Source: a bacterium
Lineage (GTDB): Bacteria; Patescibacteriota; Minisyncoccia; Phycocordibacterales; VMEP01
Direction: 5' to 3'
NCBI GenBank assembly: GCA_030699625.1
Contig: JAUYLU010000046.1
Location: 1-6,460 of the forward strand
Length of the DNA: 6,460 nucleotides
The position numbers were made by a program, and so were the translations under genes. Under the pieces are notes generated by a model. That model saw only the letters and a program-made list of their open reading frames with translations. It searched no databases and was not told the origin of the DNA. This document shows, one piece after another, positions 1,853 through 6,460 of the stretch (position 1 is the first letter of the stretch; each line of letters opens with the position of its first letter).

Positions 1853-1939
1853 ATAACCAACGACAGATAACCTACAATGAAAAAGTAGAAGGCTTGTATC
1901 CTTTTCCTGTTCCTTGTAAGTTGTTGGTTGTAAGTTTAT
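1853..1939. repeat. Heptamer-repeat element between glutaredoxin and tRNA-Arg
   Basis: From 1853 to 1936 the sequence can be cut into exactly twelve 7-bp units in one phase. Left units include ATAACCA (1853-1859), ACGACAG (1860-1866) and ATAACCT (1867-1873). Right units include GTAAGTT (1916-1922), GTTGGTT (1923-1929) and GTAAGTT (1930-1936), which are roughly the reverse complement type. The middle holds a hairpin, AAGG (1889-1892) with CCTT (1900-1903), and the outer ends ATAA (1853-1856) and TTAT (1936-1939) are placed symmetrically about it. The element fills nearly the whole gap between the glutaredoxin stop and the tRNA. It resembles the units inside lepA. Confidence 0.6.
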
Positions 1940-2651: not shown

Positions 2652-4520
2652 CTATTCCCTTACCATCTTAAGGAAGACCTCGTGGGGGATGTTCACGCGC
2701 CCCCGTGCCTGCATCTTCTTTTTCCCCTTCTTCTGCTTCTCGCGGAGCTTCATTTTCCGGGTGATGTCGCCGCCGTACAAATAGCCGGTGACGTCCTTGC
2801 GGAGCGCCTTCACGGTCTCCGAAGAAATGATCCTCCCGAGGGCACGCCCTTGCACCTTCACCACGAAGAGTTGGCGCGGGAGGATTTTGGCGAGCTTCTC
2901 CACCGCCGCCCGGGCCTCGGCCTCCACGCGCCGCTTCGAGACCACCCGGGCGAAGGCGGGCACGGCCTCGTCCGCCACGAGGATATCGAGACGGGCCACG
3001 TCGGCGGGGCGCATCTCGAGAAATTCGTAGGAGAGCGAAGCGAAACCGCTCGACCGGCTCTTTATCTCGTCGAAAAAATTGCGCATGAGCTCGCGGAGCG
3101 GCATGACCGCGGAAAGCGCCACGCGCTTTCCGCCCATGGTCTCGGTATCGCCGATCTCGGCCTCGTGGTCGTACAAAATGACCATGATGTCGGAGAGGAA
3201 TTCCGGCGGCGTGATAATCTTCAGTTTCACCCACGGCTCGCGCGCCTCCTTGTAGCTCCCGTGGTCGGGAAAGAGCGACGGCGAATAGACCATGATGCGT
3301 TTCCCGTTCGCGAGCTCGACCTCGTAATTGATTGACGGCGTGGTGATGACAAGCACGAGCCCGAACTCGCGCTTCAGGCGCTCGGTGACGATTTCGAGAT
3401 GGAGCATGCCGAGAAAGCCCGCCCGGAAGCCGCGGCCGAGGACGCCCGACGACTCCTCTTCGTAGGAGAGCGACGAATCGGAGAGTTTGAGCCGCTCGAG
3501 CGCCTGCCGGAGCTTGGTGAAATCGTCCTGGCTTTCCGGATAGATGGAGGCGAAGACCACGGGCGACGGGAGCGCGTAGCCCGGAAGTGCCGGAAGCAGC
3601 TTTTTCGTGAGCGTCACAGTATCGCCGACCGAGGCCACGCCCGGCTTTTTGATACCGGTGACGATGTACCCTATCTCGCCTGCCTGGAGCCCGTCGCGCG
3701 CCGCTTTTTCGGGAGTGAAGATGCCGGTCTCGAGCGCGAGCGAACGCTCGCGCGCGCCGACGAGCGAAAGCTCGTCGCCCTTCCGCACCTTCCCTTCGAG
3801 CACGCGCGTGTAGAGGATGATGCCCTGGTGGTTCGAGTACTCGAAGTCGAAGATGAGCCCGCGAAAGCTCCCTGAATCTCTGATCTCCTCGCGTGGCGGC
3901 GGAATGCGCTCTACCACGGCGTCGAGGAGCGCCTCCACGCCTTCACCGGTGCGGCCCGAGACGAGAAGCACATCGCTTTCAGAAACGTTGAGGAGCTTCG
4001 CGAGCTCTTGCCGGGTGCCCTCGACATCGGCGAGCGGCGAATCGATTTTGGAGACGACCGGGAGGATGGCGAGGCCGAGTTCGCGGGCCATGCCGAGCGT
4101 GGTCAAGGTCTGCGCCTGCACGCCCTGGGTGGCGTCGACGAGGAGGAGCGAGCCCTCGACGGCCTTGAGCGCCCGCGAGACCTCGTAGGAAAAATCGATA
4201 TGACCTGGCGTATCTATCAGATTCAGAATATATTCTGAATCTGATAACTGACCACCCATAACTGATGACTTATAACTTGAATTCTCGTTATTTGTTATTT
4301 GTCGTTTGTTATTAGTTAATGGTCGATAGACCATGCGCACGGGCGTCATCTTGATGGTGATGCCGCGCTCGCGCTCGAGGTCCATACGGTCAAGGACCTG
4401 GTCGCGCATCTTGCGCTTTTCTATCGTGCCCGTCACCTCAAGCAGGCGGTCCGCCAAGGTGCTTTTACCATGGTCAATATGCGCAATTATAGAAAAGTTT
4501 CGTATATGTTTTAAGTCCAT
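2652..4520 (-). CDS. lepA: Elongation factor 4 (LepA), ribosome back-translocase GTPase, with in-frame insertion
   Basis: A 622-aa LepA/EF4, a GTPase that binds ribosomes and affects elongation and assembly. G1 is AHIDHGKST (13-21), switch I ERGITIK (T55), G3 DTPGH (103-107), G4 SKID (157-160, where most translational GTPases have NKID) and G5 SGR (188-190). EF-G-like domains follow. The LepA-specific C-terminal domain ends with YGGDITRKMKLREKQKKGKKKM and a final helix, so the protein is complete. It is about 25 residues longer than the usual 595-600 because residues about 66-95, between two strands before G3, are an Asn/Ser-rich insertion encoded by a repeat element. The ATG at 4520 gives the conserved start MDLKHIRNFSIIAHIDHGKST but lacks a Shine-Dalgarno; a duplicate start lies upstream. 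Codons 1-20 and 96-111 are AT-rich, unlike the rest. The insertion sits in a loop position, so the protein may still work. Confidence 0.96.
   Translation of the reverse strand: MDLKHIRNFSIIAHIDHGKSTLADRLLEVTGTIEKRKMRDQVLDRMDLERERGITIKMTPVRMVYRPLTNNKRQITNNENSSYKSSVMGGQLSDSEYILNLIDTPGHIDFSYEVSRALKAVEGSLLLVDATQGVQAQTLTTLGMARELGLAILPVVSKIDSPLADVEGTRQELAKLLNVSESDVLLVSGRTGEGVEALLDAVVERIPPPREEIRDSGSFRGLIFDFEYSNHQGIILYTRVLEGKVRKGDELSLVGARERSLALETGIFTPEKAARDGLQAGEIGYIVTGIKKPGVASVGDTVTLTKKLLPALPGYALPSPVVFASIYPESQDDFTKLRQALERLKLSDSSLSYEEESSGVLGRGFRAGFLGMLHLEIVTERLKREFGLVLVITTPSINYEVELANGKRIMVYSPSLFPDHGSYKEAREPWVKLKIITPPEFLSDIMVILYDHEAEIGDTETMGGKRVALSAVMPLRELMRNFFDEIKSRSSGFASLSYEFLEMRPADVARLDILVADEAVPAFARVVSKRRVEAEARAAVEKLAKILPRQLFVVKVQGRALGRIISSETVKALRKDVTGYLYGGDITRKMKLREKQKKGKKKMQARGRVNIPHEVFLKMVRE
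4215..4246. repeat. Perfect 32-bp palindrome inside lepA
   Basis: Sixteen bases on each side of the 4230/4231 centre match perfectly, from TATCAGATTC (4215-4224) to GAATCTGATA (4237-4246). One half encodes conserved LepA residues (YILNLI) and the other encodes the end of the inserted segment, so the palindrome spans the insertion boundary. There is no loop, so it would extrude as a cruciform or form a hairpin in mRNA. Confidence 0.95.
4244..4326. repeat. Symmetric heptamer-repeat element inserted in frame in lepA
   Basis: Five 7-bp units on the left, such as ATAACTG (4244-4250 and again 4258-4264) and ATAACTT (4272-4278), lead to a GAATTC centre (4279-4284). They are mirrored by five units of reverse-complement type: TCGTTAT (4285-4291), TTGTTAT (4292-4298 and again 4306-4312), TTGTCGT (4299-4305) and TAGTTAA (4313-4319). 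The arms are both 35 bp. The block is open on the minus strand in the lepA frame and adds residues of the type TNNKRQITNNENS. Its AT content contrasts sharply with the GC-rich codons before it. Confidence 0.8.
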
Positions 4521-5018: not shown

Positions 5019-5060
5019 ATTTTCTATTCCAATATTCTCAAGAATACTAGAATAGAAAAT
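5019..5060. repeat. Imperfect 42-bp palindrome
   Basis: ATTTTCTATTC (5019-5029) is the exact reverse complement of GAATAGAAAAT (5050-5060). Inside, TATTCT (5033-5038) matches AGAATA (5041-5046) around a CA centre; two of the three base pairs joining the arms are mismatched. It is just past the terminator and in no gene. Confidence 0.85.
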
Positions 5061-5154: not shown

Positions 5155-5188
5155 TCTATTCTCTAATTCGCGCGAATTAGAGAATAGA
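5155..5188. repeat. Perfect 34-bp palindrome downstream of murJ
   Basis: Seventeen bases on each side of the CGCGCG centre (5169-5174) match exactly, from TCTATTCTC (5155-5163) to GAGAATAGA (5180-5188). It lies 64 bp past the murJ stop on the minus strand. It lacks a clean T-tract, so it may protect the mRNA end or be part of the repeat element beside it. Confidence 0.93.
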
Positions 5189-5211
5189 ATTTTGATTGAT
5201 TCTATTATTAT

Positions 5212-5246
5212 TTACTTTCTAACTCCTAATTCCTAACTTCTAAAGC
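5212..5246. repeat. Heptamer repeats at the murJ 3' end
   Basis: Five 7-bp units in phase include CTAACTC (5219-5225), CTAATTC (5226-5232) and CTAACTT (5233-5239), flanked by TTACTTT and CTAAAGC. Similar units, CTAATTC (5147-5153) and CTCTATT (5154-5160), lead into the 34-bp palindrome, so 5144-5246 may be one composite element: repeats, palindrome, AT-rich filler, repeats. The stretch ends five bases before the murJ stop. Confidence 0.65.
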
Positions 5247-5251
5247 CTATT

Positions 5252-6460
5252 CTACAGTTCCTGCTGCTCCGGAGCAAGCGCCTTGGTGCGCCAGAACTTG
5301 TGCCGCATGGCTTCGGAGATCTGACGAAGTTCTTCGCTCCCAAGGAGCTTCAAGACGATGAGACCGACAGCGATGCCGATGAGCCCCGAGAAAAGCCCCT
5401 GCAGGAACACGCCCATGAAGGTATCGAGTCTGAAGATGTCGTCGAAAACGTCGAGGAACTGATAGGCGGCGAAACCCATGAGGAACGATGCCGCGAAGCT
5501 CTCGAAAAAAGTGCGCTTGACGCGGGAAAAGAGGCCGGGGGCCATGTCGCGCTCGAAGATGCGGAAGAGGAGAAAGACGTTCGTAAGCGAGCCGATAGAG
5601 TACGCGAGGGCGAGCATGAGCACTTCCGTTCCCGCGAGATCGCTCACTCGGAACAAGCTTTCGATGAAATAGCGGAAATCGGGCCATTCCCGCACGAGGG
5701 CGATGAGCCCGAAGGCGAGGCCGACGATGAGCGCGTGCGAGAAGAGGTTCACGTAGAGCGGCCGCTTGGTGTGCCCCGCCGCGTAGTAGCCGCGCACGAG
5801 GAGCGGCATGAGCGATTGGGCGACGAGCGAAACCGCGAAAAGGGCGAGCATCGCCGCGGTGAGCCGCGTGTCCTCCCAGCTGAACTTGCCCGTGCCGAGG
5901 ATGACCCGCACGATCTGGGCCCGAAGCACGATGAAAAGGAAGGAAATGGGAAGCGACCAGAAGAGAATGATGCGCGCCGCCGTCTCGATCTCGCGGGCGA
6001 AGCCGCCCTTGTCCCCCGAAGAGAAGAACTTGATGAGCGCGGGGAAGGCCGCCACCGAGTACGAGACGCCGATGATGATGATGGGCACCGACTGGAGGTT
6101 GTACGAAAAATTGAAGATGGAGACCGATCCTTCCTTGATGGTCGAGGCGATGGCGATAATGGCGATGAGAACGAGCTGGTTCATCGAAAGCGTGAGCGTC
6201 CGCGGGAGCGAGACGAGCACGATCTCCTTGATGGATGAAAAATCGATGCGCGTGGAGAGGTACGGCACGAAGCGGTGGGCCCGGAGGACCGGGAACTGCA
6301 CGGCGAGATGGAGGAAGGCGCCGAGCACCACGCCGAGCGCGAGCCCTTTTTCGCCGAAGAGCGGGTAAAGGAAGAGAATGCCCGCGATCATGCACGCGTT
6401 GTAGAGCACGTGCGAGAGCGCGTAGACGAACAAGCCCCGGTACGCCTGGGTGACGCACCC
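5252..6460 (-). CDS. murJ: Lipid II flippase MurJ (MviN), C-terminal part
   Basis: The last 402 residues of a polytopic membrane protein of the MurJ/MviN family, which moves lipid II across the cytoplasmic membrane for peptidoglycan synthesis. The frame is open to the window edge, so the first 100 or so residues and the start lie outside; a TTG at 6433 should not be taken as the start. Family marks are the helix-rich pattern (about ten or eleven membrane segments), SLPRTLTLSMNQLV (84-97 of this fragment), and the signature loop and helix EGSVSIFNFSYNLQSVP (110-126) followed by IIIIGVSYSVAAFP. RGYYAAGHTKRPL later in the chain also fits. The C-terminus is short and charged. No T-tract terminator follows; palindromes and repeats do. 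Confidence 0.94.
   Translation of the reverse strand, partial: GCVTQAYRGLFVYALSHVLYNACMIAGILFLYPLFGEKGLALGVVLGAFLHLAVQFPVLRAHRFVPYLSTRIDFSSIKEIVLVSLPRTLTLSMNQLVLIAIIAIASTIKEGSVSIFNFSYNLQSVPIIIIGVSYSVAAFPALIKFFSSGDKGGFAREIETAARIILFWSLPISFLFIVLRAQIVRVILGTGKFSWEDTRLTAAMLALFAVSLVAQSLMPLLVRGYYAAGHTKRPLYVNLFSHALIVGLAFGLIALVREWPDFRYFIESLFRVSDLAGTEVLMLALAYSIGSLTNVFLLFRIFERDMAPGLFSRVKRTFFESFAASFLMGFAAYQFLDVFDDIFRLDTFMGVFLQGLFSGLIGIAVGLIVLKLLGSEELRQISEAMRHKFWRTKALAPEQQEL

Follow-up and report, generated by a model that had tools for sequence, protein, structure and literature searches.

An inverted array of degenerate heptamers interrupts lepA, the gene of elongation factor 4, without breaking its reading frame. 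The gene lies in the window (the whole stretch of DNA analysed, 6,460 bases), which is one contig of a 73-contig draft genome, G000, of 571,296 bases and 87.78% completeness. The insert is probably a solo copy, lacking any ORF, of an IVS/IVP-type element, situated in the β2-β3 turn of LepA and predicted to be translated into a disordered loop. It is likely to be the gene-less relic of such an element, a widespread insertion of ribosomal RNA, since heptamer arrays of this kind also border many genes of family PF05635 (IVP or S23p, "23S rRNA IVS protein").

The lepA product was recognized by the Pfam models GTP_EFTU, EFG_C and LepA_C and, above cut-off, by NCBIfam TIGR01393 (lepA); the structure of Thermus thermophilus EF4 (5imq) matches it. 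The insert consists of ATAACNN heptamers centred on GAATTC and precedes DTPGH (Table 1). Read on the plus strand, one arm contains the GTTAT-type units TCGTTAT TTGTTAT TTGTCGT TTGTTAT TAGTTAA (4285-4319) and the other the ATAAC-type units ATAACTG ACCACCC ATAACTG ATGACTT ATAACTT (4244-4278). Lag-7 identity in 4236-4325 was 0.583, compared with 0.288 (sd 0.047) for shuffled sequence. None of 5000 shuffles was as high, and a chance origin of the array was rejected. G+C content was 30% in 4215-4326 and 60% for lepA as a whole. The earlier note had described about 90 bp of AT-rich, 7-bp-periodic DNA with five units on each side of GAATTC and an unbroken frame, adding about 29 residues to a protein that canonically has only a short turn here. 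The lag-7 value and the open ORF bear this out, the addition being 30 codons (4325-4236), and T. thermophilus EF4 has 24 fewer residues at the site.

Table 1. Features of the window, with strand (a dot where no strand applies)
Feature	Position	Strand	Remarks
lepA (elongation factor 4)	2652..4520	-	622-aa ORF, open through the insert; host gene
In-frame insert, LepA residues 66-95 (RPLTNNKRQITNNENSSYKSSVMGGQLSDS)	4236..4325	-	30 codons, 90 bp
Heptamer arm, first in lepA sense	4285..4319	-	five ATAAC-type units, the third ACGAC
GAATTC, centre of symmetry	4279..4284	.	
Heptamer arm, second in lepA sense	4244..4278	-	five GTTAT-type units
Right-junction palindrome (TATCAGATTCAGAATA/TATTCTGAATCTGATA)	4215..4246	.	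14-bp exact arm
Left-junction palindrome ATGGTC-GATA-GACCAT with lepA codons for MVY	4319..4334	.	6-bp arm, weak alone
Second, intergenic inverted heptamer pair (ATAACCAACGACAGATAACC ... TTGTAAGTTGTTGGTTGTAAG)	1853..1934	.	pairing judged by eye
Third, intergenic heptamer array (TCTAACT CCTAATT CCTAACT)	5200..5253	.	lag-7 scan 0.66

In the lepA frame only the third unit of the left arm could give a TAA stop, and this unit reads ACGAC. ACGAC recurs at 1853-1872, within the intergenic array, and may thus be a variant that already existed. In the predicted LepA model (mean pLDDT 73) residues 70-92 had pLDDT values below 50 and were placed between strands 61-65 and 97-103. The model thus places the insert between G2 and G3, in the β2-β3 turn of the GTPase domain; if translated, it is predicted to form a disordered surface loop. 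The local RNA fold at the insert was strong (z -4.81), its strongest hairpin being the right-junction palindrome. When the window was scanned with Rfam only two tRNAs reached the threshold, by which a known Rfam RNA at the insert site was rejected. The insert contains neither a PF13366 (GxxExxY) ORF nor a PF05635 ORF; as 90 bp leave no room for the latter, only a solo derivative of an IVS/IVP-type element is claimed. The second heptamer pair of the window sits between a 77-aa ORF (1613-1846) and tRNA-Arg. Near the third array there are intergenic palindromes at 5157-5186 and 5020-5059, perfect (TATTCTCTAATTCGCGCGAATTAGAGAATA) and near-perfect (TTTTCTATTC...GAATAGAAAA), respectively.

Inserts at the same loop were looked for in 149 distinct Patescibacterial LepA genes. 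Of these, 19 came from a set of 20 loci picked mostly for long ORFs, and the others were the best matches to the window LepA and not a random draw. Relatives with named records were Patescibacteria (Parcubacteria, Nomurabacteria, Taylorbacteria, Kaiserbacteria and others), the rest 'bacterium' MAGs. In the in-frame reading the segment from GITIK to DTPGH had 30 residues in 74 genes, which is the commonest length and 25 residues shorter than in the window LepA, 26 residues in 19 genes, and at least 35 residues in 37 (29/130 without the length-picked loci). Reading in any frame yielded 37 segments of at least 105 nt, 36 of which were in frame and stop-free. The exception was L019 (genome G005), whose insert at this loop contains a CCGCCGAAGGCGG palindrome and shifts lepA out of frame. 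Among the database LepA proteins listed, 66 of 120 had long segments, a proportion that gives no rate because these proteins were ordered by similarity to a query that itself has an insert.

A close LepA relative was without the insert, as the earlier note's view of a landed element would have it. The LepA proteins P0003 and P0010 are 88.7% identical and their alignment has a single gap, the 30-residue insert, which P0010 lacks. Conservation of the same insertion in distant LepA proteins, which would contradict that view, was not found; the site recurs and the sequences differ. A quick tree was built from 139 LepA rows with insert columns excluded and SH-aLRT as the only support measure; the 19 length-picked rows, comprising N-terminal parts only, were left out. 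The 32 insert-bearing rows required at least 26 changes, 15 of them forced by strongly supported branches, compared with an average of 29.1 for shuffled labels (35/500 as low). Sister genes carried differing inserts (L109, heptamer, and L166; L091, heptamer, and L132, palindrome). The insert peptides of L004, P0002 and P0003 were alike, and the rest of their group lacked them or, in P0004, had another element; some gains may therefore reflect shared descent with loss, or transfer.

GPERSEGQ, CPERSEGQ or GPEQSEGQ was seen in six LepA loops (L114, L144, L166, L169, L171 and L249). The two of these whose DNA was read both contained a GGTCCYGAGCGAAGCGARGG palindrome, which is presumably widespread in environmental genomes.

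When the ORF-less LepA inserts were tested singly, 19 of 35 were 7-periodic at p<0.01. The other 16 were palindromes or unclassified; repeats of other kinds thus enter this loop as well. Pooling the 30 inserts of at least 40 bases gave z values of 17.7, 10.3 and 8.6 at lags 7, 14 and 21. Two genes (L221 and L246) carried at this turn, in frame, a PF13366 domain (GxxExxY, PD-(D/E)XK superfamily), and the same domain was found there in the database proteins P0004, P0018, P0042, P0048 and P0059. All seven PF13366-bearing LepA inserts contained the motifs GxGHKExxY and PD[FL]...[EL][LI]K. P0004 had the top BLAST identity to the window LepA among the other proteins listed (80% over 85%); in the full alignment a few relatives were 79-80% identical. 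Its fold was predicted with low confidence (pTM 0.49). The L007 insert resembled, by eye, the flanks of PF13366-type loci without the ORF.

In four genomes (L217-L220; G090, G022, G078 and G040) a PF13366 ORF was likewise found fused into RecG without loss of frame, between DEQHRFG and TATPIPRT, with NCBIfam RecG models flanking a TIGR04256 (GxxExxY) match. At 28 PF13366 loci the two flanks were inverted copies of each other (11.89, compared with 8.24 permuted; 0/2000), and a 7-base period was not found in them (z -1.6). Because they have inverted flanks but no such period, the PF13366 loci are treated as a sister class.

Both palindromes at the ends of the window insert are built with lepA's own flanks, a feature absent from the earlier note. 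The right-hand one is an inverted copy of the lepA codons for YILNLI and adjoins those codons. The phenomenon was tested with the outer 36 bases of 37 in-frame LepA inserts, comparing matches to their own flanks with matches to the flanks of other genomes in 2000 permutations. Inverted matches to the own flank averaged 6.19 compared with 4.71 on the left and 7.05 compared with 5.10 on the right, values reached by no permutation. Inverted arms of at least 9 were present on the left in 7/37 (0.5 expected) and on the right in 10/37 (1.25 expected). Direct matches were not raised on the left (1323/2000 permutations as high) and slightly raised on the right (53/2000). Crosswise inverted matches were unremarkable in one direction (1196/2000); in the other they reached 6/2000 but with a much smaller effect (4.92 compared with 4.52). 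The inverted copies track synonymous differences of the flank (CTGAATCTG and CTGAATTTG), which places the signal in the nucleic acid. Judged from these sequences, the insert ends look like the signature of hairpin-like joining, with no clear target duplication. P nucleotides in V(D)J joining come from opened hairpin ends.

PF05635 matches were present in 51/98 genomes of the order, 45 of them over the curated cut-off, and G000 itself has four. Nine PF05635 loci showed inverted repeat arms by eye; tested singly, seven of these had lag 7, L198 had lag 9 and L204 none of 7, 8 and 9. The 110-bp flanks of 30 loci gave z values of 12.7, 8.4 and 6.0 at lags 7, 14 and 21, compared with 2.1, -0.4 and 2.6 for control segments 700-810 bp away. 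Lag 7 was singly significant (p<0.05) in 22 of the 30, and six of the remaining eight showed period 8 or 9. The longest inverted match between upstream and downstream flanks averaged 11.83 (7.18 permuted, 0/2000); direct copies between these flanks were not raised (408/2000 as high). Plasmids gave a similar picture in 12 PF05635 loci, 11 of them from cyanobacteria and one from Azospirillum, which were selected among the 30 listed of 43 matching records. Here z was 14.6, 12.4 and 10.1 at the three lags, the inverted arms measured 11.5 compared with 7.37 (0/2000), and ten loci were singly 7-periodic. Inverted short-period arms thus surround PF05635 genes in three phyla. Where annotated, the fetched plasmid loci lie between protein genes. 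Three IVP loci in viral contigs had, by eye, GGGTGTA-type heptamers. Three of the 12 plasmid loci (L310, L314 and L315) have their PF05635 gene between CRISPR-associated genes, which are cas6/cas4 in two cases and cas10/cmr3 in one.

Arms of such genes and solo arrays can share a word within one genome. In G000 the PF05635 gene on contig C31 has AAAACTN arms, and pyrG (CTP synthase; L038 2890-2949, contig C8) contains a solo array of five AAAACTN units, in frame, encoding about 10 residues that are absent from 3nva. On C66, the arm beside another PF05635 gene consists of ATACTAN and resembles the solo arrays of L038 and L039. ATAACNN arms were found at none of the four PF05635 matches of this 87.8% complete genome. 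They flank the PF05635 gene of L187 in G090, where exact ATAACNN triplets number 21. A survey of 197 genomes gave 78 exact triplets in 16 genomes, and five in four genomes for the reversed control. Among 40 ATAACNN-array loci examined, the fetched stretch included a PF05635 gene only in L054; most arrays are therefore solo. In the sampled part of G000 there were 37 lag-7 stretches (3.0 in shuffled sequence) and 14 lag-8 stretches (3.2), and lags 5, 10, 11 and 13 gave 2-4; counts were high at multiples of 3 because codons make them, and one count at each lag is the N-only L050. CTP synthase inserts before ERHRHRYE, in the same loop, were present in three of 28 readable genes out of 30 fetched (L264, L269 and L271). 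Repeat inserts were seen in frame before ERHRHRYE in L038, L269 and L271.

These comparisons suggest that the heptamer arrays likely originate from the flanks of PF05635 genes. For the IVS/IVP reading of the LepA insert count its inverted terminal arms, its lag-7 period and the ATAACNN word shared with the arms of L187. Against it count the 8/30 and 2/12 PF05635 loci without single 7-periodicity, the 16/35 ORF-less LepA inserts without it, the predominance of solo arrays, the lack of an ATAACNN-armed PF05635 gene in G000, the broken frame of L019, the slightly raised direct matches on the right, the alike inserts of L004, P0002 and P0003, and a left junction arm of only 6 bp.

The insert might instead be a local simple-sequence repeat with palindromic ends that arose without a mobile element, growing where it stands as the polymerase slipped by 7 bases at a time and switched templates at hairpins. 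Slippage with a 7-nt footprint has already been proposed for bacterial heptamers (cited in the accessible part of PMC4679880), and inverted copies of its own flanks are what template switching makes. However, the arms are inverted, not one-way, and such arms enclose PF05635 genes in Patescibacteria, cyanobacteria and Azospirillum. Moreover, element and solo array share a word in one genome, and whole PF13366 ORFs fill the same loop. We regard growth in place as unlikely. Even less probable, in our estimate, is that selection maintains the loop as a functional extension of LepA peculiar to this lineage, its repeat composition being incidental. Such an extension would fit the frame kept in 36 of the 37 long segments and the similar peptide kept in P0002 and P0003. 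It is at odds with sister genes whose inserts differ in sequence and kind, with P0010, which lacks the insert, and with the disorder predicted for it.

Removal of the segment after transcription, or its skipping by the ribosome, as with an rRNA IVS, an intron or a bypass element, seems highly improbable. The strong local RNA fold and the out-of-frame L019 speak for removal, and RNase III cuts out rRNA IVSs (available part of PMC4990558), but removal would not require the frame and the absence of stops found in all but one of the long segments. An assembly artefact, conceivable in a contig of this size from a 73-contig draft, was rejected as next to impossible, since P0002 and P0003 have similar inserts and 36 further LepA genes have inserts at the same site.

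For the favoured IVS/IVP-type element, the following course may be envisaged. In full copies a gene for a four-helix-bundle protein (PF05635) lies between inverted arrays of degenerate heptamers, ORF-less copies being common. The arrays would be moved in trans, by IVP or, for the sister class, by the nuclease-like GxxExxY protein. Joining would proceed via hairpin-ended or snapped-back target strands; opened hairpin ends or snap-back synthesis would leave inverted copies of the flank, hence palindromic junctions and no target duplication. Selection would then remove copies that are out of frame or bring in a stop, so that tolerant turns such as the LepA loop would keep their arrays. More tentatively, and at somewhat less than even chance, the TAACTGA arrays, the cyanobacterial heptamers and the present arrays may all be arms or solo relics of one IVP (S23p) superfamily which, together with its GxxExxY sister class, uses hairpin-ended joining that leaves palindromic flank copies and repeatedly colonises exposed loops of essential proteins in frame.

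The 23S rRNA intervening sequences with S23p/IVP resemble the insert in their inverted arms and in the heptamers beside the S23p ORF of Coxiella, where tandem GACAGAT units precede that ORF (PMC4990558, in part). IVP ORFs are also known in CPR rRNA insertions (PMC11270868, in part). The window copy differs in being in frame in a protein gene, lepA, instead of rRNA, and in having no ORF. Rickettsia palindromic elements are short, palindromic and in frame in unrelated genes (accessible part of PMC10969869), as are the G000 arrays in lepA and pyrG. By description they are about 150 bp long with a conserved peptide per family, whereas the insert has 90 bp of degenerate heptamers, and the lepA and pyrG arrays of G000 have different words and peptides. 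The earlier note had drawn this analogy. Its reading was supported in part: a small repeat element does sit within a conserved gene and keep its frame, one close LepA relative is without it, and the analogy is apt. It foresaw neither the arms of PF05635 elements, nor the differing inserts and PF13366 domains at the same loop, nor the inverted flank copies.

TAACTGA, itself one of the ATAACNN words, is repeated in Beggiatoaceae, cyanobacteria and Bacteroidetes. These repeats are mostly one-way and intergenic, and a regulatory role has been proposed for them. Every reading frame is closed by forward repeats, some copies are found within ORFs, and no transfer mechanism was evident (PMC4679880, in part). 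Neither S23 nor intervening sequence occurs in that paper. The heptamers of Xanthomonas and Nostoc often form convergent pairs in Xanthomonas (PMC4692102, in part). MITEs are likewise short, inverted, ORF-less and present in many copies, but no clear target duplication was seen at the LepA junctions, where direct matches were unraised on the left and weakly raised on the right, and no transposase relative was identified. The GxxExxY insertions (PF13366, TIGR04256) in LepA and RecG share with the present insert the LepA loop, the frame, inverted arms and palindromic junctions; they differ in arms without the 7-base period and in having kept the ORF. In a limited collection of literature no paper was found that ties heptamer repeats in general to IVP/S23p or reports insertions in the LepA loop. 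If correct, the proposal would provide a source for heptamer repeats, which have been interpreted as products of slippage, as regulators or as quadruplexes, and it would supply rRNA intervening sequences, whose mobility has so far been unexplained, with a partner protein. Owing to the palindromic junctions, the chemistry of joining can be put to the test. A single turn in an ancient GTPase, occupied by arrays, by palindromes and by an entire nuclease-like domain, amounts to a natural experiment in domain insertion repeated many times.

On contig C2 of G000 (L035; 4338-4392 and 6090-6195) two ORFs with pilin-like N-termini, judged by eye, were seen. One of the two was scanned and had no Pfam match. 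Both start inside heptamer arrays, and a leader peptide may therefore come from repeat DNA.
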